A DNA stretch of 64,000 nt from the NCBI GenBank assembly GCA_031761875.1, contig CP134492.1:3844001-3908000 (forward strand), given 5' to 3'. Numbering within the stretch: the stretch's first letter is position 1; each line of letters opens with the position of its first letter. Positions 1 through 63,412 of this stretch are shown here, piece by piece. The stretch comes from Bacillaceae bacterium IKA-2. Lineage in GTDB: Bacteria > Bacillota > Bacilli > Bacillales > Anaerobacillaceae. Position numbers and translations under genes: made by a program. Below the pieces are notes generated by a model. It saw only the letters and a program-made list of their open reading frames with translations. It searched no databases and had not been told where the DNA came from.

Positions 1-466
1 AACCACCTGCGAAAGATTTTTGCAAAGTAGTGTTGCCGCCATCACGTGTTTTTACATCTGCTACTTTGTTTCTTAATGTTGGTGAGTCTCTTAACATCGG
101 TGCTAACCGTTCTTTAGAAAAATTTTTGGCTAACGATTCTGTCGGTTGCAATAATAAAATAGGTGCTGGATCAAAATCAATATGGTACCCAACTGCATTT
201 AATATTATTTCTGTCTTTCCGACTTGAGCGCTTGCCATAATAATAATTTTTTCAATTTCAGGATCATTAACAGAGTCTAATATTTCTCGTTGGTAAGGAG
301 CACGATCTGTTCTCCATTGTCCCGATTCAGCTGACGACTCACTTGAAAGTTTTCTATATGCATCTGCCCATTCTGATACTGTCAAATCAGGAGGTGGGGA
401 AAGGATTTGTTTTGCGAGATCTCTAAAAAGATTTTCAGTATTATTCTTTTTTCTTTTTTCGACCAC
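1..466 (-). CDS. Phage terminase large subunit, GpA family (N-terminal part, runs off the window)
   Basis: The reverse strand encodes about 155 residues that continue past the window edge. The protein would be the ATPase/nuclease motor that packages phage DNA into proheads. An N-terminal stretch with PDLTVSEWADAYR and a Walker A-like SAQVGKTE are typical of lambda gpA-type terminases. I chose the GTG at 464-466 because AAGGAGAG lies 8 bases upstream. This start overlaps the end of the small-subunit gene by 26 bases, which suggests translational coupling. Only the ATPase N-terminus is visible, so an intact nuclease domain cannot be confirmed. Confidence 0.85.
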   Translation of the reverse strand, partial: MVEKRKKNNTENLFRDLAKQILSPPPDLTVSEWADAYRKLSSESSAESGQWRTDRAPYQREILDSVNDPEIEKIIIMASAQVGKTEIILNAVGYHIDFDPAPILLLQPTESLAKNFSKERLAPMLRDSPTLRNKVADVKTRDGGNTTLQKSFAGG

Positions 467-1043
467 GCTTATTACTCTCCTTGACAGGTTCGATTTCTTT
501 TAGACCCTCCTCTATTTCATCCTCATCCTCTAGATACAATTTATCTTTACTGTAATCATAGAAAATGTGAGGATCATAATCTGACAGTTCATCCATCATT
601 TCAAAAACCTCTTCTTTTAATTTTTCTTTAATGGTTGATATTTCCGTTTTCCCTAATATCTGAGGCGCGGTTTTTGTAGGCAAAGATAGTAATTTAGCTC
701 TAAAAGAACCGAGCATATCATTCATGACTCGTTTTACATCTTCCGAACGGTGGAGTTCGCCCATCATTATTTTTAATTCAAGCTCTGTTTTTTGTCGGCG
801 AGCGCGCACCCATAATGCTTCTTCCTCATATTTATCAATTTCCGTATCTGGTTTTTCGCGGTCAATTAAATAACTTGTATAAGCTGTAATGGAAGCAGGG
901 AGGTCAAATTTGCCATGAGACGCTTTAATAAGGGCATTTTCGTTAGCTAATTGTTGGATTCTTCTTGTACTTAAGCTTAAGATTTCGCTAATTTCCTTTG
1001 TCGTTACAATAAACTTTTTTTCTTGCAAACCCTTGTCTGACAT
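441..1043 (-). CDS. Phage terminase small subunit (Nu1-like DNA packaging protein)
   Basis: This 200-residue protein has an N-terminal winged-helix-like segment (VTTKEISEILSLSTRRIQQL) that would recognise phage DNA, a central helical region and a very acidic then lysine-rich C-terminus. It lies directly upstream of the terminase large subunit, as Nu1-type small subunits do. The open frame extends to 1193, but AGGGAGG precedes the ATG at 1041-1043 and the upstream 50 residues do not look like protein, so I start at 1043. Its role would be to bind the packaging site and recruit the large subunit. Confidence 0.75.
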   Translation of the reverse strand: MSDKGLQEKKFIVTTKEISEILSLSTRRIQQLANENALIKASHGKFDLPASITAYTSYLIDREKPDTEIDKYEEEALWVRARRQKTELELKIMMGELHRSEDVKRVMNDMLGSFRAKLLSLPTKTAPQILGKTEISTIKEKLKEEVFEMMDELSDYDPHIFYDYSKDKLYLEDEDEIEEGLKEIEPVKESNKRGRKKKKE

Positions 1044-1506
1044 ACCTTTGACTCCCTCCCTTAAATTATTTCCCACTATTTTTTTAACTGAATGCGAAAT
1101 AAACTTTCTCGCACAGAAACTAGAGCACTCTCGGGCTCGTATGCACCCGTACTGATTACAAAGCTCCAGGAGGACCCAATTAGTTATATACACCTTTAAA
1201 ACTCAGTGTTATCAGTACTTCAAGCTATGTCTCGAGTGTATCGATGAGCTAATTCATGAAATTTTAAAAACGTAATGAATTTTCTATAATTCCTCATGTT
1301 ATCCACAGTTTTCTTACTTATCCACCAATGAACTTCAATACATATTGTGTCTCTTTCGAACAAGTCTGCAACCTATTGCTACTGCTGCATTAAGGCCACT
1401 TCTGTTTTTGAATGATACAACTCTATATTTATGTGTCATAAGTCAAGTGTGAATCTTTAAGTATTAAGCTATTAAACTACTTAAATATTACCGCCTAATA
1501 ATCTTA
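1044..1506. other. Non-coding stretch in prophage, with two DnaA-box-like sites
   Basis: No convincing gene is seen here. TTATCCACA at 1299-1307 matches the DnaA-box consensus, and TTATCCACC at 1318-1326 is one base off, 19 bases away in the same orientation. Chance occurrence is possible. The position just before the terminase genes is where a packaging (cos/pac) site or an HNH endonuclease gene often sits in related phages, but no HNH gene is present. Confidence 0.3.
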
Positions 1507-1725
1507 CTAGTCATCTTTTAGTAGTTTACGAGCCTCTTTCCAAGGCTTGCCTAATATCTTTTCAATGCCAGCGCTATCAGCTTCTATCCTATCGAATAGA
1601 ACCTTTCTTCTTCGCTCGTTCTTGAGTTCCTTTAAGGATACAATGATCATCAATATAAACCATATAAAAGCTAACCCTTTTAAGATTTGATCTATATATA
1701 CAATAATTAAAAACGATTCACCCAT
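1507..1725 (-). CDS. Small phage membrane protein
   Basis: This 72-residue protein has one clear hydrophobic helix at about residues 5-31, followed by a basic, charged cytoplasmic-type tail (KNERRRK). An extended AGGAGGAGGTGA ribosome-binding site lies just upstream, at the end of the preceding small gene. I do not recognise a family. It lies between the terminase genes and the late regulator. Confidence 0.55.
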   Translation of the reverse strand: MGESFLIIVYIDQILKGLAFIWFILMIIVSLKELKNERRRKVLFDRIEADSAGIEKILGKPWKEARKLLKDD

Positions 1726-1731
1726 TAATGG

Positions 1732-1932
1732 TCACCTCCTCCTAACCGCCCCACCACGACGCTCATAGCGATCACGATCCATACCCATTAGACTTTTGAT
1801 TTCCCTCTCAGAAAACTTTTCGTTTGATCTAAGCGGGTCATTATTAACAGGCTTATTTTTTCTCTGCTTACTAATTCTGATTTTCTTAAGTTTCTCTTGT
1901 GTGTTTTTATCTAGGTGATCGATCAGTTTCAT
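1732..1932 (-). CDS. Small basic phage protein of the pre-terminase region
   Basis: This 66-residue, strongly basic protein ends in LMGMDRDRYERRGGAVRRR-type sequence. Similar small proteins with a 'REI..LMG' motif and an Arg-rich tail commonly lie near terminase genes in Bacillus prophages; that link is from memory of the family. GGGGTGAG lies at a usable distance upstream of the ATG. The function is unknown. Confidence 0.55.
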   Translation of the reverse strand: MKLIDHLDKNTQEKLKKIRISKQRKNKPVNNDPLRSNEKFSEREIKSLMGMDRDRYERRGGAVRRR

Positions 1933-1989
1933 AACAAACTCACCCCTTTTTTCAGAAAATTAAAAAGCACCTCATAGCGAGCTGCTTTG

Positions 1990-2544
1990 TTACCGATTTT
2001 TCTTATAACTTAATTTCATCATTGCCTTTTCTATCGAGTCTTGTGTAATGCCGATATATCGTAACGTGTGCTCGGGAGTAGAATGATTAAAAATGTTTTG
2101 AAGCATAGCTACATCTTTAGTAGACGAGTACATATGGTAACCGAACGTCTTCCTCAATGTATGCGTTCCGATGTTTTCGAGTCCGCAAACATAAGCTGCA
2201 CTTCTGAGTATTTTATAAGCCATCCCCCGATGAATAGGCTTATTCAGTCCTTTTCTAGATTTGAATAAATATTCATCATCATCCTTGTCTGCAATATACT
2301 TTTTAATCTCTCTTCTGTACTCGGGGATAATGGGGATTATTTTCGACTTCCTTGTTTTCTTTTCTTTTATATCAATATATTTCCCTTGCACATCTTTGGA
2401 CTTGAGGGATAAGATGTCCGATATCCTTAATCCTGTGTAAATACCAGTTAGAAACAACATATGATTCCGGTCACTTTGTTCCAATAAAAACTCCATTATT
2501 TCAGCTACTTTTTCCATATCTCGAATTGGTTGGACAAACTTCAT
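1990..2544 (-). CDS. Small phage tyrosine recombinase (catalytic domain only)
   Basis: This 184-residue protein consists essentially of the phage-integrase catalytic domain. It has the arginine in GLRISD, a lysine in EKKTRKSK, HTLRKT, the late histidine in NHSTPEH and the nucleophile tyrosine in LRYIGI. The arm-binding and core-binding domains of a full integrase are missing. Such short recombinases recur beside ArpU genes in Firmicute prophages and are distinct from the real integrase at 24253. It may resolve concatemers or act on the phage genome; that is inference. Confidence 0.8.
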   Translation of the reverse strand: MKFVQPIRDMEKVAEIMEFLLEQSDRNHMLFLTGIYTGLRISDILSLKSKDVQGKYIDIKEKKTRKSKIIPIIPEYRREIKKYIADKDDDEYLFKSRKGLNKPIHRGMAYKILRSAAYVCGLENIGTHTLRKTFGYHMYSSTKDVAMLQNIFNHSTPEHTLRYIGITQDSIEKAMMKLSYKKNR

Positions 2545-2654
2545 CGTCTATCCCTCCTTGCACCCACTAAATATTATTTGTTACTAACATAATACAACAG
2601 AGATTAGTGTTTGCTCTGCCTAGTTACTGCCATGTTTCTGCCTAATGTCTGCCA

Positions 2655-3092
2655 TTATGTTAAATCTTCTTTAATTACTTCTATTTTAAGAGCAAAAGCT
2701 AAGTTATAAAAAGCTCTAGCTTTTATGCGATAATACTGGCGCTCACTCAGCCCTACGCTTGTATATATTTGATAGTCAAATTCCGTATCTTCATTAATGT
2801 ATCGTCTTATAATAATTTCTCTTTCTTGGATTCTAATCCTATTAACCGCTTTTCGGACCTGCTCTATAAAAGATAACTTTCTTTTCTCTCCATCTACATT
2901 TGCTACCGCTATATCTTCTGTACTTGAATGAAATTCGTTAGTATTAGTAGGGGGTACCAGTGAAAAAGTCTGAGTTACTTTTGGAGTTCTTCTTTCGTCA
3001 ACGGTAAGTAAACATACGCGATATTGTTCAAGCGCCTTCTCGACGGCTTCTTTAGTCTTTTCTCTATTTATCTCTGGTAATTGAAATAACAT
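2655..3092 (-). CDS. ArpU-family late transcriptional regulator
   Basis: This 145-residue protein matches the ArpU family, sigma-like regulators of phage late genes. Its C-terminal half reads like a sigma region 4 helix-turn-helix (RIQEREIIIRRY ... GLSERQYYRIKARAFYNLA). The open frame starts at 3140, but AGGGAGGT lies 8 bases before the ATG at 3090-3092, so that start is used. A strong terminator lies upstream at 3156-3203, so this gene and the terminase genes probably have their own promoter. Confidence 0.75.
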   Translation of the reverse strand: MLFQLPEINREKTKEAVEKALEQYRVCLLTVDERRTPKVTQTFSLVPPTNTNEFHSSTEDIAVANVDGEKRKLSFIEQVRKAVNRIRIQEREIIIRRYINEDTEFDYQIYTSVGLSERQYYRIKARAFYNLAFALKIEVIKEDLT

Positions 3093-3155
3093 TATCAAAA
3101 ACCTCCCTTTAATTTTAACGAATGATCTTTTTGTCATCACTCTGTACAGATAAAC

Positions 3156-3203
3156 AAAAAGAGGACACTAAACAAACAAAATTTCTGCTTGTTTAGTGTC
3201 CTC
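3156..3203 (-). terminator. Rho-independent terminator for minus-strand early transcripts
   Basis: A perfect 15-bp stem (GAGGACACTAAACAA at 3161-3175 and its complement at 3189-3203) is followed on the minus strand by a T5 run. It separates the early/replication genes from the ArpU-terminase block. Confidence 0.85.
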
Positions 3204-3212
3204 CGAGTTCGG

Positions 3213-3581
3213 TCAGACTAAGTATTCATTTACTTGAGTATAAATGAACCATTCCTTTAATTCATAACATATTTTCATTTTTATTGGAATTTTATTGTCT
3301 CTATGTTCTTCTAAAATTTTTATCGCTTCCGCCCAATCAAACTTTTTTGTTTTGTTAATGTAACTCCAAATCCCATATGCGTGGTGCTCCCATAACTCGT
3401 AATGAAAGTTTTTCTTCTTTACACATCCTGGATAAAGATCACTTTCGACTGGTGACAAAGCGTCCTTTGGGACAAAACCGCTTATGTAACAACATGAATT
3501 GTCCTTCCAATAAGCCTTACCTTCATCAAACGTATTAAATGTTTCGAATATAGTCAACTGCTCAATTACTAGACGGTCCAT
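3213..3581 (-). CDS. Hypothetical phage protein (122 residues)
   Basis: A soluble-looking protein, rich in aromatic residues, with several cysteines (SCCYISG, PGCVKKK, KICYELKEW). No family is recognised. It follows the DUF3102 gene by 11 bases and is the last gene before the terminator at 3156-3203, so it belongs to the early operon. Confidence 0.55.
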   Translation of the reverse strand: MDRLVIEQLTIFETFNTFDEGKAYWKDNSCCYISGFVPKDALSPVESDLYPGCVKKKNFHYELWEHHAYGIWSYINKTKKFDWAEAIKILEEHRDNKIPIKMKICYELKEWFIYTQVNEYLV

Positions 3582-3592
3582 AAAATCCCCTT

Positions 3593-4531
3593 CTAAAGTC
3601 GTTCAGACATTTTATTTATTAGCCCTGTGACAGCACCCTTATACTTTTCATGCACAAGTTCATCGGCTTCTTTTATTTCATCTAAGGATGCTAACAAACT
3701 CTGAAAGTTAGTAACTAATATCTCAAAACAAAAGGAAAATTTGACCTCAGATTTATTATCCTTTTTCTTGGCTTTTTCTCTTAGTTCATTCAACTCTTTT
3801 TGCACTTCTTCAGGAATAACTTCTACCGTTGCTGGAACATCGATAGGTTTCTTCTTCAATTCCTCTTCAAGAGTAGTAATTTGTGATTTATATTTTTCAA
3901 GTTCGGTTTGTGAATATAAAAACGAATCCTGAAGTTTTTTAAGTTTTTCTTTATCTACTCCACCAGATTCCTTTTTATCAAGTTCCTTTTGTAATCGGTT
4001 TGATAATTCAGCGTGAGTTTTACTTTGTTTTTCTAAATCGTCATATTTGGTAGAAATCTTTTCCCTGGTATCGCGTTCTTTATCATTTTTTTGTTCACTT
4101 TCCAATAATTTCAGTTCTAATTCTTTTTTCTCTTTAATCACTTTATTAAGTTCTCTAGTAGACATATTTTCTACATCTTTCTCTTTGACAAAGGCTTCTC
4201 GCTGTTCTTCTGGCACTCCAAGAAGCGCTACCGCTTGGCTATAAGACAACTTCTCAAACGCTTGCGATTTTACATTAGCTCCAAAGATAGATAACTGATC
4301 CGAGGAAAACTGTTCAAAAATTCTAAGCAAGTTAGTGGCCGTTGATTGAGAATAATCTACATTTCCCTCTAACCACTTGCCCCATTCGCCGTGTGGCACC
4401 ATGATCTTCGCTTCAGTTAATCTTCGTCCAATTTCAATACTGTTGTACAAAAACATCTTTCTTGTTTGCTCTTTAATACTATTTATTTCAGCTGCAATTA
4501 TTTCAGTTGTTCTGGTTGATACCTGGTTCAT
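3593..4531 (-). CDS. DUF3102-family phage protein with coiled coil
   Basis: This 312-residue protein has the DUF3102 N-terminal domain at about residues 10-130 (EIGRRLTEAK, HGEWGKWLE, YSQSTATNLLRIFEQF), a ParB/KorB-like helical fold seen in Firmicute prophages. A long charged coiled coil follows at about residues 130-260, then a conserved short C-terminal helix region. It sits 11 bases downstream of the broken pcfJ gene. Its biochemical function is not established. Confidence 0.75.
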   Translation of the reverse strand: MNQVSTRTTEIIAAEINSIKEQTRKMFLYNSIEIGRRLTEAKIMVPHGEWGKWLEGNVDYSQSTATNLLRIFEQFSSDQLSIFGANVKSQAFEKLSYSQAVALLGVPEEQREAFVKEKDVENMSTRELNKVIKEKKELELKLLESEQKNDKERDTREKISTKYDDLEKQSKTHAELSNRLQKELDKKESGGVDKEKLKKLQDSFLYSQTELEKYKSQITTLEEELKKKPIDVPATVEVIPEEVQKELNELREKAKKKDNKSEVKFSFCFEILVTNFQSLLASLDEIKEADELVHEKYKGAVTGLINKMSERL

Positions 4532-4542
4532 ATTCTTCCCCC

Positions 4543-5082
4543 CTATGCTAGTTGAGCGGTTTTCTTTTTCTGTGTCTTCTTGGCCAATTTTTCTTTTTCA
4601 AATTCCGCAATAAAAAGTTTTACTTCTTTAGTTGGACTACAATTTTTATTACCGCGAACTTGGGTAATATGCTTGCCGTTTATTTCTACAGTGTAAAAAG
4701 GTTTATCTGGATTAGATGCTTTTCGAAGCACAAAGAGGTCTATTTTCCCTTCTGCATACTTCTTAGCGTAACCACCAACACAATGAGTTAAGGCATTACC
4801 TTCGTCTATTAATTCTTTAGAGCTTGAAGCTGGTCGAATTAGACATTCACCCTGCTTAAAGGTAAGTTTGCTTAGTTCTTTTAATCTAGCCTCGATCTTG
4901 GCGTTTAGCTCCTGATCTTCTTTGTATTTCACTTTTTTGATAGTCTCTTGGTGGGCTTTGTAAAGGTTAGACGGAAACAAAATGCTGTCTTGACTTGTGT
5001 CCATATTCAACTTCTCGCAATCAGCAATGTAATCTCTCCAAGTTCCAATAACATAATCTCCACGATTAAATTTCTTCTTTGC
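4543..5082 (-). pseudogene. PcfJ-like protein, C-terminal fragment (gene split by IS21-family insertion)
   Basis: The frame (open to 5133, but upstream of 5082 it is IS sequence) carries the conserved PcfJ C-terminal signature LTHCVGGYAKKYAEGK followed by LFVLRKASNP and FYTVEINGK. The N-terminal half is at 10974-11984 on the same strand. The 6-bp sequence at 5077-5082 is repeated at 10974-10979. Joining the halves across one copy gives the continuous reading ESKGAK-KKFNRGDYV, so the original gene was intact before insertion. The fragment probably cannot be translated from its native start. Confidence 0.85.
5077..5082. repeat. 6-bp target-site duplication of the IS21-family element (left copy)
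   Basis: CTTTGC here is repeated at 10974-10979. It directly abuts the two element ends, whose outermost bases are TGTATTTG (5083 onward) and CATAAACA (ending at 10973). Confidence 0.8.
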
Positions 5083-5133
5083 TGTATTTGTCAACTCAAA
5101 AGCGGTCCACGAATCAGTTGAAAAAAGGTCCAC

Positions 5134-5880
5134 TTATTTAGTTGGTTTTAGCCATGACATTGTCTCTTCAAATCGGTGACTTACTTCTCGTGAAATATCT
5201 AAGATATGTGATTTGTGAGCAAGTCTATCTACAATTGCACCAGTAAGCATCGGGTCTTTAAAAATCTCTTCCCAGCGATCAAAAGCCAAGTTTGTTGTTA
5301 TGATTATTGATCCTTTATCGTTTCTATTTGATAATAAATTAAATAGTATTTCACAACCAATTTTGTCAAATGATACGTATCCCAGTTCATCTAAAACGAC
5401 AAGACTGTACTTTTCAAATTTGGTTTTATATTGCGATAGTTTGCTTTCACTCATTGCTTCTTTTAACTCTATTATTAAGTTAGGTACAGAGATAAACAAT
5501 ACACTTTTGCCTTCCAAACACGCCTTAATACCAAGCCCAATACTATAATGTGATTTCCCGCAGCCAGGAGATCCTATTAAGATTATATTTTCTTTATTTT
5601 CAATGAACTGCAACGTTTCTAGTTCTTCGAATTTCGGTATAAATTTCTTATGGTACTTACTCTTGTCGAAGTCTTCTAAGTACTTGTTAAGAGGGAATTT
5701 AGCCCTTCTGAGTCTATGTTTTAAACCATTCTCAAGCCTTAGTTCTAATTCTCTTTCGAGTAGACGACTTATCAGCTCTCGGTGGGTCATGTTTGTATGG
5801 TTTGCTTCATCAAGAAGCATTTGATAATTGGTTTTTATATAGGGTAATTTTAGTATATGGGCCATTTCTTGTATTTGCAT
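5134..5880 (-). CDS. istB: IS21-family helper ATPase IstB
   Basis: This 248-residue AAA+ ATPase has Walker A GSPGCGKSHYS (about residues 102-112) and Walker B LVVLDELGY. IstB assembles on DNA and activates the IstA transposase for insertion; its sequence resembles DnaC-type loaders. The start codon abuts the istA stop (TAA-ATG), with GGAGGTGG ahead of it, so the two genes are coupled. It looks full length, but its partner istA is disrupted. Confidence 0.92.
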   Translation of the reverse strand: MQIQEMAHILKLPYIKTNYQMLLDEANHTNMTHRELISRLLERELELRLENGLKHRLRRAKFPLNKYLEDFDKSKYHKKFIPKFEELETLQFIENKENIILIGSPGCGKSHYSIGLGIKACLEGKSVLFISVPNLIIELKEAMSESKLSQYKTKFEKYSLVVLDELGYVSFDKIGCEILFNLLSNRNDKGSIIITTNLAFDRWEEIFKDPMLTGAIVDRLAHKSHILDISREVSHRFEETMSWLKPTK

Positions 5881-6569
5881 TTATTCCACCTCCGAGAAAC
5901 ATAATTCGTTATATCTAGATACTTGCCTTGTAGCGATGTTGCTAAGTGCAGTTTTATCTATGTGCATAGATGGAATAATATCGATATGAGATTTATTGTA
6001 TGTTTCTAGAATCAATAGTATTTCTTCGATTGGTTTATCATCATTTTCTTGAATGATCTCTATGAATTTTTTCTTGTTTCTGCTAAAATTAGTATCATAG
6101 ATGGCTTTTAACCTTGGTATGCTTTTTAGAGCGTGGGAGTTCTTGATTGCACCTGGTTTTTTGTTTAATGAGTTTAAGTAATGTTTAATTTTAATACTTA
6201 TCTCGTTAGTACCATCTATTTTTTTGTGTTCACAAACGAGTATGTTGTTTGAATAAAAGCCTATTGTGTCGTAATATTTCTTGATTGTTATTAAGCGTCC
6301 TACAAGATACTCCGGTACTGAATAGTGGTTGTTATCAACTCGTACAAAACTATATTTATTTGGTTTTTGCACTGTAACTGTTGCAAGATCAAGCTTTGGT
6401 TTTGTAGGTTGAAGATGTTTTATTTCTTCAGAAATAGTGCTGTCTTTATTGAGTTCTATCAATATAGTATTCAAGTATTCACGTGCATCATCGAATGTCT
6501 TAAACTTATAAGTTAACGCAAATGCTTTGTTCCTAATTATCTTCACGCTGCCCTCCACATGACCCTTCT
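5881..6569 (-). pseudogene. istA: IstA transposase, C-terminal fragment
   Basis: The fragment encodes the C-terminal part of an IS21 transposase, starting at the conserved GHVEG after the split point. The N-terminal part is at 10062-10847. The two pieces rejoin in frame as CFSGNEKG-HVEGSVK if the segment 6570-10069 is removed. The GTG at about 6556-6558 could look like a start, but the residues before it (KGH) belong to the transposase. The third catalytic acidic residue of the DDE triad lies close to this junction. Confidence 0.88.
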
Positions 6570-6587
6570 AATGCAAAGCTTTACATT

Positions 6588-6638
6588 AGAAGGGTAATGA
6601 AAAGTATATGATAATGTAAAGTAAGGCTGTTAAATAAC
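6588..6638. repeat. Left terminal inverted repeat of the RIT element
   Basis: The 51 bases starting AGAAGGGTAATGAAAAG are the inverse complement of 10019-10069, with a single mismatch. The outermost 8 bases are the complement of the istA target octamer ACCCTTCT. Confidence 0.92.
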
Positions 6639-6660
6639 CGTAAGTAAAGGATCCCTCGCT

Positions 6661-6675
6661 GTTTTACTTTACATT
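6661..6675. repeat. Left subterminal recombinase-site arm of the RIT element
   Basis: GTTTTACTTTACATT is the exact inverse complement of 9982-9996. Together with AATGTAAAGTAAG inside the terminal repeat it forms a pair of inverted arms about 35 bases apart, as expected for a tyrosine-recombinase binding site. Confidence 0.75.
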
Positions 6676-6696
6676 ATCTGCAACGCAAACACTATT

Positions 6697-7716
6697 TTAT
6701 TTATCAAATCTTTTTAGCCATTCCAATAAATCTCCACTTTTTTGCCAAGAAGGTGCACCTTTTGGTACAACATCTGTATATGCTTTTTCAATTGCTTCTC
6801 TTTTTTGTTTTGAATCTACCTTAGCGTAAATTTCAGTTGTTTGGACAGAACGGTGACCTAGTATATCACGGATGTATATGAGATTAACTCCTGCTTGGAG
6901 TAAGTGCATAGCTTTTGAATGTCTCAGACAATGACAGCTAAATCGTTCTGGGATTAATATTTGATCTTTAATACGAGCCTTGCGTGCATATTTATCTAGT
7001 ATGTAATTCACCCCTGCCCGGGTCAGTTTTTCTCCTCTTTTGTTACAGAACAATGGGTACATGTTTGCTGACAAACTTAACAGCCCCTGCTCATCCATAT
7101 ATCGATTTAATAAATCTAACGGAGCATCCATCAGAGGGACTATCCGGGCTTTATTCCCCTTACCAATTAACTTTACAGTACATGGTCTGTCAAAACGTAC
7201 TTGTGACGGAGTGAGGTCAATGATTTCCTGTACTCTTCCACCGCTTTCATACATAATTGACAAAAGAGCAAGATCTCTTCGTCCTATTTTAGTTGACTGA
7301 TCAGGCATTTCCAAAAGTAGTCTGATCCCATTAAGCGTTAGGTAACTGATTGATTTTGTTTCTGTTTTCTTAACCCGGATTCCAAGGATTCTCTGCCATT
7401 CCAAAAGATTATCGGGGCTCTGATACTGGAGATATTGGAAGAAAGAGTGTAATGCCGCAAGGCGGACGTTCCTTGTGGCTGTACTACAGCCACGCTCTGT
7501 TTCTATCCAGTCAAGAAAGTGAATAACCATTTCCTTATTAATCATGCCCAGCGTCAGAGAATTTGTTTTTATTCCTTTTTTATCCTTGATAAATGTAAGG
7601 AAAAGTACAAATGTGTCTCTATAAGAGGCAATCGTATTTATACTGAACCCCATTTCTCCTGGCAGGTATTTTGTAAGAAATCCTGTCAGATAGCGAGAGA
7701 AATCAGTCGGCTTCAT
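6697..7716 (-). CDS. RIT tyrosine recombinase, third of trio
   Basis: This recombinase of about 339 residues has an N-terminal SAM-like core-binding domain and a complete catalytic set: arginine in GGRVQE, lysine in GKGNKAR, HCLRHS, histidine in LGHRS and tyrosine in IYAKV. The frame is open to 7746, but GGAGG lies about 9 bases before the ATG at 7714-7716, so that start is used. It overlaps the end of the second recombinase by 14 bases. Its start is embedded in the upstream gene, so expression probably depends on translational coupling. Confidence 0.9.
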   Translation of the reverse strand: MKPTDFSRYLTGFLTKYLPGEMGFSINTIASYRDTFVLFLTFIKDKKGIKTNSLTLGMINKEMVIHFLDWIETERGCSTATRNVRLAALHSFFQYLQYQSPDNLLEWQRILGIRVKKTETKSISYLTLNGIRLLLEMPDQSTKIGRRDLALLSIMYESGGRVQEIIDLTPSQVRFDRPCTVKLIGKGNKARIVPLMDAPLDLLNRYMDEQGLLSLSANMYPLFCNKRGEKLTRAGVNYILDKYARKARIKDQILIPERFSCHCLRHSKAMHLLQAGVNLIYIRDILGHRSVQTTEIYAKVDSKQKREAIEKAYTDVVPKGAPSWQKSGDLLEWLKRFDK

Positions 7717-8674
7717 AATGGTCAACCTCCGGAAATACATAGGCACAAACGTTATCTACTTCTCTAATTAAATCAGGGTACATGTCAGATGTTAGCCTTA
7801 CATACTTATCTGTAGCCTCTAATGACTGATGCCCAAGATATTTTGATAATATTGGGAGTGAGTAGTATAAATCTAGCCCAGCTTCTGACATTTTCACAAG
7901 AGAGTGTACACTGAAAGTGTGACGAAAGTCATGCATTCTTGGGCCAAAACCCTTCCCACCATGTGGAATTCCTGCATTCCAGAGTATTTTTCTGAACCAT
8001 TCATATATTGCCTTGGCATTACATTTTTGCCCATTGTTCTTGATAAAAAAATAACCTTTCGGTTCATATTTGCCGGGACGAACATTCCTATATTGAATAC
8101 ACACCTCAGTTAGTGTTTCAGATAATGGGAGTATTCGGTCTTTGCCGTTTTTCGTTTCCCTGACAATAATATTTTTTGCATCAAGATCAACATCCTTACA
8201 TGTTAGGGATAACGCTTCGCTGATACGGATGCCACAGCCATATAGCATTCTAAATAAAGCGGGGAGTACATACACAGTTGTTTCAAATCGTCTATTAACT
8301 TTAAGCGTATCACATGCATCGAAGAATGCATTCACTTCCTTTTTCGAGAAAATATGTGGTACAAACGTACTGCTGTACTTTTTAGGCAATCTCGGTATAT
8401 GTGATGGATATCCCATATCATTTAAATAGGCGGAAAATTTTGCAATATAATGAATCCTCGCATAACGTGTCTTGTCTGATTCATTTGGACGCTTCTCACT
8501 CCATTTATCAACAATCTCCTTTGATAGACCGAGTTTTAATACGGCATTATCTATTGTAAATCTGTCAAATAACGAAAGTGTGTAAGTGGCATCAACAAAC
8601 TTGTAACCGAGGTTTCTTTTGAAATCAATGTACTGTTCGATTAAACCAGCATAAATACCACAATAGTTCGGCAT
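7703..8674 (-). CDS. RIT tyrosine recombinase, second of trio
   Basis: This recombinase of about 323 residues carries arginine in GCGIRISE, lysine in ETKNGKDR, HDFRHT, histidine in LGHQS and tyrosine in DKYVRL, so all catalytic positions are present. The frame is open to 8731. The second of two adjacent ATGs (8672-8674) is 7 bases after AGGAGG and is preferred. The stop of the first recombinase overlaps this start (ATGATG context), which indicates coupled translation. Confidence 0.9.
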   Translation of the reverse strand: MPNYCGIYAGLIEQYIDFKRNLGYKFVDATYTLSLFDRFTIDNAVLKLGLSKEIVDKWSEKRPNESDKTRYARIHYIAKFSAYLNDMGYPSHIPRLPKKYSSTFVPHIFSKKEVNAFFDACDTLKVNRRFETTVYVLPALFRMLYGCGIRISEALSLTCKDVDLDAKNIIVRETKNGKDRILPLSETLTEVCIQYRNVRPGKYEPKGYFFIKNNGQKCNAKAIYEWFRKILWNAGIPHGGKGFGPRMHDFRHTFSVHSLVKMSEAGLDLYYSLPILSKYLGHQSLEATDKYVRLTSDMYPDLIREVDNVCAYVFPEVDHYEAD

Positions 8675-9921
8675 CATTCCACCTCCTTGGCATAAAATGG
8701 CGTTTTTAAGAGTGGAACATCTAATGCGCATTGGCTCAAAGATGTTAAGTCTATTCGTAAATAAGTTTTTGTGCTTTCGGTATTCTTGTGACCTAGCACT
8801 TCTGATATAACATGGATGGGTATTTTTTGTTCCAGTAGTTGCCCAGCAAGACTGTGCCTCAAAGCATGAGGACCATGTTTCTTTTCTGTTATGTTTTTAA
8901 TGCCAGCACGACGGAGATAAAAAGTAACAATGCTATGCAAAGTCGATCTATTTAGGCAGTTATATGGCGGGATTGCATGTAGGAAGACATAAGGAAGATC
9001 AGATTTAGGCCGTCCATACTTCAGATAATCGATAATAGCCTCTCCTATTTCTATTAAAAGTGGATGCTCAATCTTATTTTTAGTCTTTTGTTGAACAAGT
9101 GTAATTGTATTCTTTTCCCAGTGTATGTTTTCAAACTTCAACAGACAGATGTCAGAAGCCCTCAATCCCAATCGTGCAGCCAATAGTATCATAGCAGCAT
9201 CACGCTTCCCTTTTGGGCTACTTCTGTCAACAGTATTGATTAATGATTCAACTTCATTTTTCGTATATGTCGTGGGTAGTTTACATTGCTTCTTGTAATT
9301 GTCTTTTGGAATTAGGTATGAAAAGTCAATCCCTGTATACCCATTGTCATGTAGATATCTCATAAACCCACGTAAAGTGGTAAGCATGCTGTGGCGCGTT
9401 GCAGGTGTATAAAAACCAAGCTGATTCACAAATCCTAAAATGTGTTGTTTTTTAATTGCTTCGGTTTCCATGACTCCTTCTTCATTAAAAAAACTAAGAA
9501 AGCGATGAAGATTTAATCGGTAATGACCAAGCGTATTTTCTGTAATACCCAAAGATTTTCGGTGATTAAGGAAATCCACCATAGGATTACCGATGCAACC
9601 ATAAAATTGGTAGGATTTCTTTGCCCTTCTGTATTGGAACGTTCCTGTAGACTGAAATTCAGTTAGAACATCCACACACCGGATTATGCTCTTTTCCCAA
9701 TGGCTAAATTCCTCGTATTTCCCAGTACCAATAAAGTCAGCTATAAATGCTCCACCTACTGACGCTGAATAATACTCAATCTGATTGTTTTCCATAAAAG
9801 TAGCCAGTTTTTGCCACGCGGAACGATATTGGCTTATCCTTGATTCGGAATAGGACATATCCCGAAGGGATTTAACTACTTCTGAGGACAGTTGTTCAAA
9901 TGTTTGATATTTTTGTTCCAT
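8674..9921 (-). CDS. RIT tyrosine recombinase, first of trio
   Basis: This recombinase of about 415 residues has a long N-terminal region, then a SAM-like core-binding domain and a catalytic domain: arginine in GLRASD, lysine in QQKTKNK, HALRHS, histidine in LGHKN and tyrosine in KTYLRI. The ATG at 9919-9921 is chosen over 9927 because GGAGG is 8 bases ahead of it. It is the promoter-proximal gene of the trio and begins about 100 bases inside the right terminal repeat. Confidence 0.9.
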   Translation of the reverse strand: MEQKYQTFEQLSSEVVKSLRDMSYSESRISQYRSAWQKLATFMENNQIEYYSASVGGAFIADFIGTGKYEEFSHWEKSIIRCVDVLTEFQSTGTFQYRRAKKSYQFYGCIGNPMVDFLNHRKSLGITENTLGHYRLNLHRFLSFFNEEGVMETEAIKKQHILGFVNQLGFYTPATRHSMLTTLRGFMRYLHDNGYTGIDFSYLIPKDNYKKQCKLPTTYTKNEVESLINTVDRSSPKGKRDAAMILLAARLGLRASDICLLKFENIHWEKNTITLVQQKTKNKIEHPLLIEIGEAIIDYLKYGRPKSDLPYVFLHAIPPYNCLNRSTLHSIVTFYLRRAGIKNITEKKHGPHALRHSLAGQLLEQKIPIHVISEVLGHKNTESTKTYLRIDLTSLSQCALDVPLLKTPFYAKEVE

Positions 9922-9981
9922 AATCATAACCTCCTATATTTAACGTAGGCGACCTCGCCTATATTAAATATAGCCATTGAA

Positions 9982-9996
9982 AATGTAAAGTAAAAC
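9982..9996. repeat. Right subterminal recombinase-site arm of the RIT element
   Basis: AATGTAAAGTAAAAC is the exact inverse complement of 6661-6675 and pairs with the TTACTTTACATT inside the right terminal repeat. Confidence 0.75.
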
Positions 9997-10018
9997 AACT
10001 AGAATCACTTTGTTTATA

Positions 10019-10069
10019 GTTATCTAACAGCCTTACTTTACATTATCATATACTTTTCATTACCCTTCT
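10019..10069. repeat. Right terminal inverted repeat of the RIT element
   Basis: The inverse complement of 6588-6638 with one mismatch. It ends in ACCCTTCT (10062-10069), where the istA sequence resumes. Confidence 0.92.
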
Positions 10070-10847
10070 CGTTTCCACTGAAACAATTAGTGACGTTGAT
10101 ATCGAATCCGTAGTAGAGTGACAATTTTAGCAAATTCTCATTGAGGACTTTTTCAGTTTTACCTATGAATTTTGATACTACATTTCTCATATTGTCGTAC
10201 ACAATCTCTGAATAAACGCCACCTAACATATCGAAGAAACGCACATGAGAATCCATAAAGACGTCTTGCTTTTGATTCTTATATAAATACGCCCATCTGA
10301 AATCAGCAGCTGGTGAAGATAGTACAGCTAGATGATAGGTATTGATCTCCCCGTTTATTTCTAACTTCACTTCGCCAAAATCATATTCAAGTCTTTGCCC
10401 TAAATCATATGATTGTTTAATAAAGCATTCCTTAGGTTTGTTTCTTTTTTCTCTGATTTTATTTGTAATAGTTGTATATCCAATATCAAACTTTTCATTG
10501 ACTAGCATTTGGTGAATTTGCAAATTAGTCAGCTGTTGTTTATGTCGACCTAACTCTTTACACTTTTCAGATTCACTCTCTAGGATTTCGTCTAATCTGG
10601 TATCGATTTCTGCTGTGTACTTTCTTGGCTTTCTATTTTGAGCATTATACTTTGGTGCCTCGCATATTTTTTCTTGTACTTCTTGTACTTCTTTTTTATT
10701 AACGTCTAAGGCATTCAACAGAGTATTGTTCTTCTGGTACTCATTCCAATAGATTGCGACTGTTTTCCGATTGATGTTTAAAAGCTTGGCAGCTTTTCTA
10801 TTGGATACACCTTGCTGCTTTAGTTTTATTATTGCATGTTTGTCCAT
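10062..10847 (-). pseudogene. istA: IstA transposase, N-terminal fragment
   Basis: The fragment holds the N-terminal helix-turn-helix (LKQQGVSNRKAAKLLNINRKTV) and the first two acidic residues of the DDE core (EYDFGEVKLE, EIVYDNMRN). It runs to CFSGNEKG, where the RIT element enters. The frame continues a few codons into the inverted repeat and stops at 10038. The ATG at 10845-10847 fits the usual IS21 start (MDKHAIIKL) and has GGAG upstream; the frame is open to 10886. Confidence 0.88.
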
Positions 10848-10973
10848 TATCTCAATCACTCCATCCCACCCCTTTACTGCCATCATAACAGTAAGAGATT
10901 AGTGTTAAAGTACTGGACCGTTTTTCAATTGATATTATTCTATTAATGGGCCACTTTTAGAGTATCATAAACA

Positions 10974-10979
10974 CTTTGC
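10974..10979. repeat. 6-bp target-site duplication of the IS21-family element (right copy)
   Basis: CTTTGC, identical to 5077-5082, adjoining the outermost CATAAACA of the element. Confidence 0.8.
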
Positions 10980-11984
10980 CCCTTTACTTTCAAATTGCTT
11001 TTTCATATAACGATATATTTTACCGATCGTTGTATATTTTTTTAGTATTTTAATCGCTTCATCGTTATTATAGGAACACATTTCACTAAGTTCATAAGAT
11101 TCTATAAACGAAATATTTGATTCGTCTTTTTTTGATTGTTGATACAAATAAAGAGTGAAAGGATTAATGCCCCTATTGATACTCATTAAATCCCTAAGCG
11201 TTTTAATGTCTTGCTTATTAAGTCTTAAAACCTTATTTAGAGTTTTTCCATTCCAATTTATTACCCTATACATGTTATTTCCATAAATCTTTTCTTTTAC
11301 AAAATTTGATAATCCTAGTTTTGTTAAATACTCCACACACGGATATTTAGCAGCAAGATCAAAAAAGTTAAGCATGTCGTCAAAATGGTACTGCTCCCAT
11401 GTACAATACTGAAACAAAGTTCCCTCAACCGCTTTTGAAATGCTTTTTCGTGAGTAGTAGCAATTCTTGTACCTCATAACCCCAGTACTTTCAGAATAAA
11501 TTGATCGCCTTTTGCGCCAATTTCCCTTCCATTCCTGGTCTATCATCACACTTTTACCAGGTTCAAAAACGTACATTGCAGTTACTCTAAATTTAGTTTC
11601 TGCACTTCTATAACATTCTCTGTAATCCCTTATTACATGGATACCTCTTGCGGTGATAGCGTTAGGACTTGTAAGAGACTTTTCGTACCAGACAAAATAC
11701 GCTTCATCATACATTTTGCCCCTGCCTCTACCGCTTGATTTAGCAACGCATTCGGACTCACATTCTGTACAGCGTACTCTTTCATTGTGCTTATGATTGT
11801 CTGTTCTGAATGTCTTTTTACAATGCGTACAATAACCATACTGTTGACCTGATCCGCTTCGTTGAGTGAAAATGTATCTGCTACCTAATAGGACTTCATC
11901 GTTAACGTAATCCATTATTTCCTTGCTCACTTTATCTGGAAAGTGAGCATGTATTTCTTCTTGCTCTTTTTTACAAAGCTCCAT
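10974..11984 (-). pseudogene. PcfJ-like protein, N-terminal fragment
   Basis: About 335 residues of a PcfJ-like protein, with a zinc-ribbon-like CTHCKKTFR ... VRCTECESEC at about residues 52-80, up to the IS21 insertion point (ESKGAK). The open frame ends at 10965, three codons into the IS. GGAGGCGAC lies ahead of the ATG at 11982-11984. PcfJ-like proteins occur on Gram-positive plasmids and prophages, normally beside pcfK; their function is not established. The gene is inactivated, and its remaining part is at 4543-5082. Confidence 0.85.
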
Positions 11985-24236: not shown

Positions 24237-24252
24237 GAAAGAAGTGATAAAG

Positions 24253-25413
24253 ATGGCCACATTCAGAGAATTAAAAAGTGGTAAATGGCAAGCTCGAGTG
24301 TCGAGAGAAGGCCAGGAATTTAGCATAGGTACGTTTAGAACAAAAAAAGAAGCGAGGATTGAAGCTGGTAAGGTCGAAGAGCGAATTTATTATGGTCAAG
24401 CGCTCAATGATAGAAATATGTTATTTTTAGAAGTAGCAAATGAATGGCTGCATGAACATAAAAAATCCACGGTTAAAGAATCTACTTTTGAACAATTGGA
24501 AGTGATTGTTCGGATTCACATCCTACCCCCGTTTATTCATAAGCGCATTATGAGTATCAATCGGGCGGATATAAAACGCTGGCTTAAAAAATATGCTGAC
24601 AATACTCCTGGCGACATCAATTATTCGCATGGTTCACAGTTAAAATATTTATCTGTTTTAAAAAGTATTTTTCACTATGCCGTCCACGAGTTGGAGGTGC
24701 TGGAAAAAAACCCAGCTGATCGTTTACAAGTTCCAGTACAGGACAAGGTAAGCGTTAATAAAGATACGAAATACTATGGCCTAAGCGAATTAAACAAGTT
24801 ACTTGATTTCATGAAAACATATAACCACCAACGTTTTAAAAATTATCAAATTTATTATGTATTGATGTACTTTTTATCTCAAACAGGTCTGCGGATCAGT
24901 GAAGCTTTAGCACTAAAATGGACGGATGTTAACGGGGATAAATTGACAGTCGAAAGACAAACCAGTAGGGGGAATAACAACGAATTAAAGATCACAACCC
25001 TTAAAAACACATCATCATACAGAACGATCGGACTTAATGAGGACTTGGTACGTGAATTAAAAAAATTCAAACTAAAGCAAAATGAAATGATTTTAGGTGA
25101 TAAATCTTTTAGTAAAAATGGAGAGAGTATTATTTTTCAAAATTTTTTAGGGAACTATTTGACGCCTTCCACAGTACGTGACTCAATCAAGGATTATTGT
25201 CATAAAGCTGGAGTTGATTATAAAGGTACACATGGATTTAGGCACACGCACGCTGTCTTGCTAATAGAAGCCGGCGCAAGCATTAAGTATGTATCCAGTC
25301 GATTAGGTCACAAGACGATCAAAACAACGGCTGACACTTATCTGGATATCACAGATAAAATAGAAAAAGACGAACTAGAAAAGTTCGCCTCTTACACTAA
25401 AAGAAAATCCTGA
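24253..25413 (+). CDS. Prophage integrase (tyrosine recombinase)
   Basis: A protein of about 386 residues: an N-terminal AP2-like arm-binding domain (GKWQARVSREGQEFSIGTFRTKKEA), a SAM-like core-binding domain (about residues 60-165) and a complete catalytic domain (GLRISE, lysine in TLKNTSS, HGFRHT, LGHKTI, nucleophile in TYLDI). The ATG at 24253 is used; an in-frame GTG is at 24244. It lies at the prophage edge, 80 bases from the chromosomal sufB gene, so attachment is probably in that intergenic region. Confidence 0.9.
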   Translation: MATFRELKSGKWQARVSREGQEFSIGTFRTKKEARIEAGKVEERIYYGQALNDRNMLFLEVANEWLHEHKKSTVKESTFEQLEVIVRIHILPPFIHKRIMSINRADIKRWLKKYADNTPGDINYSHGSQLKYLSVLKSIFHYAVHELEVLEKNPADRLQVPVQDKVSVNKDTKYYGLSELNKLLDFMKTYNHQRFKNYQIYYVLMYFLSQTGLRISEALALKWTDVNGDKLTVERQTSRGNNNELKITTLKNTSSYRTIGLNEDLVRELKKFKLKQNEMILGDKSFSKNGESIIFQNFLGNYLTPSTVRDSIKDYCHKAGVDYKGTHGFRHTHAVLLIEAGASIKYVSSRLGHKTIKTTADTYLDITDKIEKDELEKFASYTKRKS

Positions 25414-25493: not shown

Positions 25494-26891
25494 TTAACCG
25501 ATACTACCTTCCATTTCGAACTTAATTAGTCGATTCATTTCTACTGCATATTCCATTGGTAATTCTTTTGTAAATGGCTCAATAAAGCCCATAACGATCA
25601 TTTCAGTTGCTTCTTGCATTGAAATCCCACGGCTCATCAAGTAGAACAATTGTTCTTCCGACACTTTCGATACGGTAGCTTCATGCTCTAACGTAATGTT
25701 ATTGTTAAGGATTTCATTGTACGGAATTGTATCTGAAGTTGACTCGTTATCCATAATTAATGTGTCACACTCAATTTTTGACATTGAGCCTTCAGATTTA
25801 CGACCGAAGTGACAGACACCACGATAGGTTACTTTTCCGCCGTGCTTTGAAATCGATTTAGAGATGATTGTTGATGAACAGTTTGGTGCCAAGTGTGTTA
25901 CTTTTGCTCCGGCATCCTGGTGCTGTCCTTTACCAGCGATCGCGATTGAAAGGATTGTTCCTTTTGCGCCTTCGCCTTTCATAATAACCGCTGGATATTT
26001 CATCGTCAGCTTCGAACCAATGTTACCATCAACCCATTCCATTGTTGCATTTTCATAGGCAACGGCACGTTTTGTCACTAAGTTGAAAATATTAGGTGCC
26101 CAGTTTTGGATTGTCGTGTAACGACAGTATGCATTTTTATTAACAACAATTTCGACTACGGCACTATGAAGTGAATTTGTTGAATACGTCGGCGCTGTAC
26201 AACCTTCAACGTAGTGAATTGAACTATCTTCATCAGCAATAATTAATGTACGCTCAAATTGACCCATATTTTCCGAGTTAATTCGGAAATATGCTTGAAG
26301 TGGCGTGTCACACTTTACTCCTTTTGGAACGTATATGAATGAGCCACCTGACCAAACTGCTGAGTTTAATGCTGCGAATTTATTGTCTGACGGCGGAATA
26401 ATTGTCGCAAAATATTTTCTGAAGATTTCCTCGTTTTCACGCATAGCAGAATCTGTATCTTTAAAGATAACCCCTAAATCCTGTAAGTCTTCTTGCATAT
26501 TGTGATAAACAACTTCAGATTCATATTGAGCTGATACCCCAGCTAAATACTTTTGCTCAGCTTCTGGAATTCCAAGTTTATCAAACGTATTTTTAATTTC
26601 TTCTGGAACTTCATCCCAAGACTTCTCTGATCTTTCTGACGGCTTTACGTAATACGTAATATCATCAAAAACTAAATCAGACATATCTCCGCCAAATGAT
26701 GGCATCGGCATTTTATAAAATTGCTCTAATGACTTTAAGCGGAATTTCAACATCCACTCAGGTTCATTTTTAATTTTCGAAATTTGCATAACAATTTCCT
26801 TTGTTAAGCCTTTTCCAGCACGGAAAATCGAGACGTCTTTATCCGAAAAACCGTATTGATATTCTCCTATTTCAGGCATTTTTTTCGCCAT
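25494..26891 (-). CDS. sufB: Fe-S cluster assembly protein SufB
   Basis: A 465-residue protein, full length. It shows the SufB signature blocks [51 protein letters not shown] and [14 protein letters not shown]. SufB is the scaffold subunit of the SufBCD complex, where the cluster is built from sulfur delivered by SufS-SufU. It is the last gene of sufCDSUB, separated from sufU by 122 bases. AGGAGGG precedes the ATG. Confidence 0.96.
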
Positions 26892-62221: not shown

Positions 62222-63412
62222 ATGAAACGGGCTTTCAAGACGGAGATCAAACTAGCCGAAGCAGGGCGCATCAAACTTCATCAAACCCTGGGTGTGTGCC
62301 GATTTTTGTATAATAAATTCCTTTCCTACAATCAACAACGCTACAGAGAGTCTCTTGAAGGAAAACAGCCCTACGGATTTGTCAGTGGTATGGACTTTGA
62401 TCAGTACGTCAACAACGAACTCTCCAAGCAAGAAGGTTACGAGTGGATCAAAGATGTTGGTTCAAAAGCACGAAAAAAAGCAATTATGAATGCGGATACC
62501 GCGTTCCAACGGTTTTTTAAAGGAGAATCAGACTTCCCTCGTTTCAAGAAGAAGAAAAACCAAGATGTCAAAGCTTACTTTCCAAAGAACAACAAAGGTG
62601 ATTGGACAGTCGAGAGGCACCGCATCAAAATCCCGACATTTGGTTGGGTACGACTAAAAGAATTTGGTTACATTCCTACAACTATGAAAGTGACAAGTGG
62701 AACAGTCAGCAAAAAAGCAGGACGATACTTTGTATCTGTTTTATGTGAGTTAGAAAACGTACCACAACAACCGAAGTTAATGTCTGAAAAAGGTAAAGGC
62801 ATAGACCTAGGTATCAAAACCTTTGCGGTATGCAGCGACAACCAAGAATTTAAAAACGTAAACAAAACACCAAGAGTAAAAAAACTAACAAAAAAATTAA
62901 AGCGAGAGCAGCGTTCCCTCTCCCGTAAGTACGAATCGGTAAAAAAATCCAAAATGAAGGGTGGTGAATCTGCTACTAAAACGAGAGCAAACGTCGACAA
63001 AAATATTTGTAGAGTGCAAAGACTCCACCAAAGACTTGCCGATATCCGTTTGGAGTACGTCAAATCCGTGGTGACTAGCGTGGTAAAAACCAAACCACGT
63101 TACATTACGATTGAAGATTTGAACGTCAAAGGCATGATGAAGAATCGCCACTTATCAAAAGCGATAGCGGAACAGTGTTTCTACACGTTCAAGAAGTGGT
63201 TGATCAACAAATGCGTCCAACGAGGTATTGAATTAAGGGAAGTTAGCCTCTGGTATCCATCAAGCAAGTTGTGTTCGTGTTGCGGTCAACTCAAGAATGA
63301 CTTAACACTGAAAGATCGCACATATGAATGCAATTGTGGGAACAAGATGGATCGAGATTTAAATGCGGCTGTTAACTTAATGCATGCAAAAGAATATACA
63401 CTCCTCACTTAA
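62222..63412 (+). CDS. tnpB: TnpB, RNA-guided nuclease of the IS200/IS605 group
   Basis: A 396-residue protein, full length. The RuvC residues are present: Asp195 (GIDLGIKT), Glu298 (ITIEDLNVKG) and the Asp-Arg-Asp at 377-379 (DRDLNAAVNL), with the zinc knuckles CSCCG (351-355) and CNCG (370-373). TnpB uses an RNA from the element's right end to cut DNA matching the flank next to a short target motif, which helps the element persist. GGAGGTG precedes the ATG at 62222. Confidence 0.95.
   Translation: MKRAFKTEIKLAEAGRIKLHQTLGVCRFLYNKFLSYNQQRYRESLEGKQPYGFVSGMDFDQYVNNELSKQEGYEWIKDVGSKARKKAIMNADTAFQRFFKGESDFPRFKKKKNQDVKAYFPKNNKGDWTVERHRIKIPTFGWVRLKEFGYIPTTMKVTSGTVSKKAGRYFVSVLCELENVPQQPKLMSEKGKGIDLGIKTFAVCSDNQEFKNVNKTPRVKKLTKKLKREQRSLSRKYESVKKSKMKGGESATKTRANVDKNICRVQRLHQRLADIRLEYVKSVVTSVVKTKPRYITIEDLNVKGMMKNRHLSKAIAEQCFYTFKKWLINKCVQRGIELREVSLWYPSSKLCSCCGQLKNDLTLKDRTYECNCGNKMDRDLNAAVNLMHAKEYTLLT

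Follow-up and report, generated by a model that had tools for sequence, protein, structure and literature searches.

The 64-kb window, i.e. the whole stretch of DNA analysed here, belongs to the 4.42 Mb, single-contig genome of Bacillaceae bacterium IKA-2 (termed G000). In it the prophage gene pcfJ is split by an IS21-family insertion sequence which itself is split by a recombinase-trio element (RIT). The original prediction had proposed this three-level nest, and its coordinates and gene halves were borne out by profile matches, the target duplication and the comparison of multiple copies. The N-terminal half of pcfJ lies on the minus strand at 10974..11984, including the 6-bp target duplication; the C-terminal half is at 4543..5082 on the same strand (Pfam PcfJ, 128.8 bits, cut-off 25). 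Aligned with phrog_8470 (567 positions), the segment 10965-11984 covered positions 42-381 and the segment 4543-5082 positions 390-562, collinearly and without overlap. Thus, the halves are parts of one family as had been anticipated. The duplicated target CTTTGC is present at 5077..5082 (left copy) and 10974..10979 (right copy). The IS21 element in between (5083..10973; 5,891 bp) carries the RIT and is one of 19 such composites in the genome, in addition to one mirror copy.

The IS21 genes are encoded on the minus strand. The helper ATPase istB extends over 5134..5880 (NF038214, 231.4 bits, cut-off 200; Pfam IstB_IS21). The N-terminal half of istA, 10062..10847, ends with NEKG and scored 129.6 bits against NF033546, for which the cut-off of 160 applies to the whole protein. 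The C-terminal half, 5881..6569, starts with HVEG; it matched Pfam Mu-transpos_C_2 and none of the NCBIfam models. Two IS21 elements of this genome, L069 and L070, are naturally free of the RIT. They carry istA as an open frame of 505 residues reading NEKGHVEG, exactly the frame that had been predicted, so istA did not have to be reconstructed. The C-terminal half in the window equals residues 274-501 of this natural IstA, which as a whole scored 159.1 bits against the NF033546 cut-off of 160 (E 1.6e-46).

The RIT proper (6588..10061, minus strand, present in 20 copies) is made up of three tyrosine recombinase genes that lie side by side on one strand, overlap and follow the order ritA-ritB-ritC: ritA at 8674..9927, ritB at 7703..8731 and ritC at 6697..7746 (Pfam Phage_integrase E-values 8.3e-33, 1.1e-26 and 3.5e-31, respectively; ritC was scanned as 6697-7716). 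The hidden Markov models for ritA, ritB and ritC were built from the window trio and five related trios and are no independent proof of the order labels. From the inner to the third core the RIT measures 3,482 bp, with inverted ends of 91 bp that are 88% identical; besides the three recombinase genes only opposite-strand frames of 82-95 residues are located between the ends. RitB matched the C. necator H16 plasmid pHG1, for which RITs have been published, with 34.7% identity over 89% of the query.

The junctions are composed of short cores and a joint. The outer core ACCCTTCT (6562..6569; 6-bp core CCCTTC) adjoins the C-terminal istA half and occurs once in each of the RIT-free copies. It is followed by an 18-bp near-palindromic joint, AATGCAAAGCTTTACATT (6570..6587), and by the inner core AGAAGGGT (6588..6595), which is inverted with respect to the outer core. 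At the other end a third core, again ACCCTTCT (10062..10069), forms a simple junction on the side of the N-terminal istA half; the inner and the third core were delimited by comparison of copies. The order at the loaded site thus is istA C side, ACCCTTCT, AATGCAAAGCTTTACATT, AGAAGGGT, RIT, ACCCTTCT, istA N side. The stretch from outer to inner core constitutes two inverted recombinase-type sites with a common palindromic middle.

All 20 full RIT copies of G000 reside at one and the same istA site of IS21, in both orientations. The segment of istB and the C-terminal istA half was found at 23 places, the N-terminal istA half at 21. By structure these loci are 19 composites (C-RIT-N), the mirror copy L060 (C-RIT-C) and the two RIT-free elements. 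In 17 of the 19 composites the C, N and RIT segments are identical, the exceptions being L063 with a 12-bp deletion in istA and L068 with a single base change in the RIT; the RIT-free copies are identical to each other and to the IS21 parts of the window. Target duplications of 5-7 bp flank 16 of the 19 composites and, of the RIT-free pair, one element. In 11 composites the RIT has one orientation, in 8 the opposite one. Chance co-occurrence of RIT and IS21 was ruled out by 20/20 RITs in IS21. The view of the locus as a rare nest was rejected as well, RIT-in-IS21 being the rule in this genome; with only two RIT-free copies the original claim of an uncommon insertion did not hold. Nor did the claimed clear order of events. 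With 19 composites at different genome places, 16 of them with a target duplication of their own, a loaded IS21 could have entered pcfJ in one step, and the order of insertion is not fixed by this locus. The loaded IS21 may indeed have entered pcfJ as a single unit. At two of the IS21 copies, L059 and L069, AATGGT begins the right flank of one and ends the left flank of the other while neither has its own duplication, which hints at a rearrangement between them.

The joint is informative about how the RIT arrives. Across copies it is a near-palindrome of 18-20 bp at one RIT end or the other; in G000, 11 copies carry it at the end next to ritC, 8 at the end next to ritA, and the mirror copy has it at both ends. 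If the RIT inserts from a circle with both cores in its joint, the near-palindrome should always face the same way with respect to the RIT, no matter at which end it is located. This was the case in 32/32 copies with an asymmetric joint from five genomes (G000 20, Neobacillus PS3-12 4, G600 2, G628 4, G485 2). In a further genome, G004 (10 copies, of which one has no joint), the joints are symmetric and uninformative on orientation. If the RIT had inverted once in place, the joint would be flipped relative to it; this was seen in 0/32 copies and such a single inversion was rejected. The side of the target gene on which the joint resides was called by a fixed rule on interrupted genes of the reverse transcriptase (RT), IstA and IstB types (n = 55). 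In RT targets the joint was on the N side in 17/17 detected cases, with the RIT 10 times one way and 7 times the other. In IstB Walker A targets it was on the C side in 14/14 (RIT 8/6), and in IstA-type targets, a group that includes IS481-like targets matching IstA references, on the C side in 8/8 single-joint copies (RIT 4/4), with one further copy having both. The one IstB Walker B case with a detected joint had it on the N side. Mirror copies, in which the same-side half of the target flanks both RIT ends, were L060, L108, L273, L106 and L321. They are expected from recombination between inverted RIT copies, and RITs may thus drive chromosome inversions.

Related RITs were sought irrespective of their target. 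In the same family 7 genomes were searched with RitA. In the order 397 genomes were searched with a RitB alignment; RitB matches mostly exceeded ~110 bits and Xer-like proteins stayed below ~102, the border not being sharp. In the phylum RitB matches were obtained in 48 of 398 genomes at E 1e-45, and from named genomes the best 80 of 354 matches were considered. Regions examined numbered 18 from the order matches and 40 from the phylum matches. Altogether 151 loci gave 137 complete trios in 132 loci. The analysed set comprises 93 RITs for which 350 bp or more were available on either side, the repeat views L161, L227, L186 and L291 having been taken out; it includes several copies per genome and 75 distinct RitB sequences. 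Target classes combine phmmer mapping (56/93 match RT, IstA or IstB references, among them L112, which adjoins an intact RT), Pfam tallies, single scans and reading by eye. Positions, orientations, joints, RIT-free copies and target classes were all read off the sequences.

By our own assignment, which counts the DnaC of a phage-like locus, 72 of the 93 RITs interrupt genes of mobile-element enzymes; in the wider sample, too, such insertions are anything but uncommon. Most frequent were group II intron reverse transcriptases (20), followed by IstB at Walker A (16), the DDE catalytic-E site (13), the DDE second-D site (8) and IS66 (8). Two each were in IstB Walker B, IS3, ParA, a PP-loop protein, C5 methylase and amidoligase, and single ones in DnaC, TniB, a tyrosine recombinase and ArdA; 12 had no assigned target. 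L232 is ParA by nucleotide reading while Pfam on the A-side piece gave DnaB, and ArdA at L309 is a weak assignment. The motif names used (PQGG, Walker A/B, DDE, CWAH, PCQ) and target labels such as IS481-like or IS256 are what we take these sites and enzymes to be, in part on reading by eye. The Pfam tallies were consistent with the main classes: RVT_1 was detected in 19/92 A-side and 20/92 C-side pieces, the latter count including the intact RT beside the L112 RIT, and IstB in 16/92 and 17/92, respectively.

Where mapped, the breakpoints coincide with conserved motifs. In IstB interrupted at Walker A, 14/14 mapped C-pieces start at residue 107-109 of 248, GKS being at 108. In the reverse transcriptases 16/19 C-pieces align from residue 214, or from the equivalent 248 in the other reference, which is the GG of PQGG (212-215). 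Among the remaining cases L169 and L184 begin with GG and align later, L168 is degenerate, and of L175 there is an N piece only. Targeting of motifs outside transposases was observed at L310, L277, L240, L299 and L300, with genes for C5 DNA methylase (one at the PCQ motif), the ParA Walker A region and amidoligase-like proteins. A single istB of Bacillus timonensis (L145, also seen as L227) is cut by two different RITs, once at Walker A and once at Walker B. Read by eye, L105 of G004 (292-11755) is a four-level nest: a group II intron RT gene is split at GAPQGG by a RIT, the ritC side of this RIT is split by an IS481-like element, and the latter is split by another RIT.

Plasmids were sampled ad hoc, without a preset selection: 529 records matched RitB, and of the 40 listed 15 were taken, Agrobacterium, E. 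coli, Enterobacter, Haematobacter and others being passed over; the targets were read by eye only. Eight of the 15 were assigned: an RT at QGG|GGVISPL (L325), IstA at the second D (L315), at the E site (L316) and in mirrored form (L321), IS256 (L317), a helicase motif (L319) and, in two Cupriavidus plasmids (L311 and L314), a tyrosine recombinase gene with its break in the catalytic-tyrosine region, TTxRYY. In these last two, as read by eye, a recombinase element is aimed at recombinase genes. A search for distant DNA relatives of the RIT in plasmids gave no match.

Do the RITs move by themselves? Within single genomes RITs which are 99.9-100% identical over ~3.2 kb reside in targets that are 23-55% identical, and they can occupy the same codon of such divergent targets. 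Usable host comparisons came from PS3-12, G004, G628 and G600, and none from G719 and G485. In Neobacillus PS3-12 four reverse transcriptases host near-identical RITs and their pieces are 24-55% identical. In G004 the RITs of family X are in two IstB types of 39-44% identity and those of family Y in targets of mostly 33-46%; the corresponding values were 23-36% in G628 and 25-35% in G600. Near-identical RITs in distant targets indicate that RITs of this kind move by themselves, and neither transposition of a composite nor gene conversion explains these cases. When the target classes were mapped on a quickly built RitB tree (93 rows, 75 of them different), 19 changes were required compared with a mean of 62.0 after shuffling, and 0/200 shuffles were as low; this clustering is helped by near copies. 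The 20 RT rows required 3 changes, the 17 of Walker A with DnaC 1, the 8 of DDE second-D 1, the 13 of DDE-E 2, the 8 of IS66 4, the 2 of IS3 2, and the 12 without assigned target 9. These figures indicate that the target type follows RIT phylogeny.

We propose, with a probability of about 0.8, that the RIT is a mobile element, site-specific in istA and moving via a double-core circle, and that RIT clades are specialised for the codons of conserved motifs in particular enzymes, mostly those of other mobile elements. In istA the insertion point would be in the codons immediately preceding that of the presumed catalytic glutamate (NEKG|HVEG). The RIT would leave as a circle in which the joint has the structure core, 18-20 bp palindrome, core. 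Such a circle joint would contain two overlapping inverted recombinase sites, each typically CATWA, a 6-bp core and TWATG. Either of the two inverted cores could then exchange strands with the matching 6-bp core of the target. As either core is usable, the joint would always be on the same side of the target gene with the RIT pointing either way. The loaded IS21 presumably has lost its own activity; it probably also transposes in one piece, for which the RIT-free copies would provide IstA in trans. Somewhat less secure, although we consider it more probable than not, is the more general proposal that RITs are widespread hyperparasites which home, by way of a two-way circle, to catalytic-motif DNA of mobile-element enzymes and break the active site with each insertion. 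The enzymes concerned would be group II intron reverse transcriptases, DDE transposases, IstB/DnaC ATPases and tyrosine recombinases.

Several observations weigh against this proposal. Circle and excision are deduced from assembled sequences only, and two successive in-place inversions, of the RIT and then of the joint, would yield the same end product. The copies in G000 are nearly identical, so two RIT insertions followed by IS21 transposition might suffice to account for all 20. By the fixed rule the joint went undetected in 14/55 copies (RT 3/20, Walker A 2/16, IstA-type 8/17, Walker B 1/2), some of which (L271, L272, L304-L306) display it on reading. Twelve of the 93 RITs are without assignable target, several classes rest on motifs read by eye, and for 9/93 the interrupted gene (ParA, PP-loop, C5 methylase, amidoligase, ArdA) is not clearly one of a mobile element; among the plasmid RITs 7/15 were left without an assigned target. 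Lastly, some RIT pairs are in near-identical hosts (90-100%, and two pairs at 74%), where hitchhiking is possible. Such pairs occur among three of the four copies in family X, once in G628 (~90%) and several times in family Y (72-100%).

The closest competitor concerns G000 itself. The 20 loaded IS21 elements could stem mainly from IS21 transposition of a composite which was formed as few as twice, once per orientation, and the RIT would be a passenger here. To this we assign slightly less than an even chance. It is in line with the identity of most composites in all three segments (17/19) and with their own target duplications (16/19). It is also compatible with the model of joint and cores and could hold for most G000 copies, yet elsewhere near-identical RITs are in clearly different host genes. 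A further alternative regards the RIT as a reversible off-switch: excision would restore istA, IS21 would jump in bursts and the pair would be maintained by selection. In favour of this idea, the natural RIT-free copies have a precise site with an open istA; however, no sign of excision or of regulated control was seen and the RIT-free copies may never have been invaded, which makes it unlikely.

Two other mechanisms fare worse. Tyrosine recombinases are able to invert DNA and inverted cores are present at both RIT ends, so the two orientations might be generated by inversion in place. Yet the flipped joint expected after a single step was absent from all informative copies. A second event turning over the 18-20 bp joint would have to be assumed for each inverted copy in the five genomes, and movement between different host genes is accounted for by neither event. 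We consider this highly improbable. Equally improbable is a spread by RecA-dependent gene conversion between homologous flanks rather than by the RIT's own recombinases. It is conceivable among the identical IS21 copies of G000, whereas the interrupted proteins elsewhere share only 23-55% identity, and a joint on one target side with both RIT orientations is left unexplained. Movement of the RIT via a double-core circle remains our preferred explanation.

The surroundings of the locus were inspected as well. Among phages no near DNA relative of the window stretch was found, and among viral_contigs no relative of the N-terminal pcfJ half or of RitB. The DNA of the C-terminal pcfJ half, searched in 299 genomes of the order, was of full length only in its own genome, with two short matches elsewhere; tblastn against phages with the two pcfJ halves returned 1 and 339 records. 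By eye, a TnpB-like open frame (IS200/IS605-type) is located near the end of the window at 62222-63412. An integrase-like gene (24244-25413, by eye) is directly beside a SufB-like gene (25494-26891); possibly this is a prophage end.

How does this compare with known systems? Excerpts of Van Houdt et al. (2012; PMC3414803) describe RITs of Cupriavidus metallidurans CH34 and others, including one type in a Tn6049-like transposase gene; they mention variation of the RIT ends and an end repeat with a palindrome, no other convincing binding sites, and mobility as undemonstrated. According to an excerpt of the CH34 genome paper (2010; PMC2864759) RITs inactivate an IS66 tnpA and radC. A RIT in a transposase gene is therefore not new. 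Table 1 of Idola et al. (2023; PMC10214605) gives RITs as not tested for target specificity, an empty site or movement. The present RIT resembles the CH34 RITs, as far as these excerpts describe them, in its three adjacent overlapping tyrosine recombinase genes, a length of ~3.5 kb, the inverted end repeat overlapping a palindrome and several copies per genome. In contrast to the published accounts in these excerpts, the ends, the double-core joint, both orientations, RIT-free sites and a target rule at motif level are defined here by comparison. Several tyrosine recombinases are also a feature of SE, GInt and Tn554 elements in the parts of PMC10214605 and PMC5385486 that deal with them. The SE circle joint as described there has one 6-bp spacer between the end motifs (PMC10214605), whereas the RIT joint has two inverted cores around the 18-20 bp palindrome; because of the two cores insertion would work both ways. 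An SE in the sense of that excerpt has a single-spacer joint and four conserved genes; the window RIT has two cores and three recombinase genes. Among the papers listed in searches of the open-licence literature, which is without the main RIT paper, there was no RIT study besides those cited, and no account of the joint structure, of insertion either way round or of clade-wide targeting at motif level was found.

The host element shares istA/istB and short target duplications (5-7 bp here) with the IS21 family. It differs in that a RIT interrupts nearly all copies in G000, always at one site. Codons of highly conserved protein motifs are also where inteins and homing introns insert. Unlike these, RITs do not splice; the gene is broken and tyrosine recombinases are encoded.

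With 20 copies in G000 and those in related genomes, and with exact sites provided, the gap concerning specificity, empty site and movement of RITs is partly answered. The structure of joint and cores bears on the question why three recombinases are needed. If the motif rule is true, RITs would be a natural brake on, or a parasite of, insertion sequences and group II introns, and they would represent an unusual case in which DNA targeting tracks conserved protein motifs.

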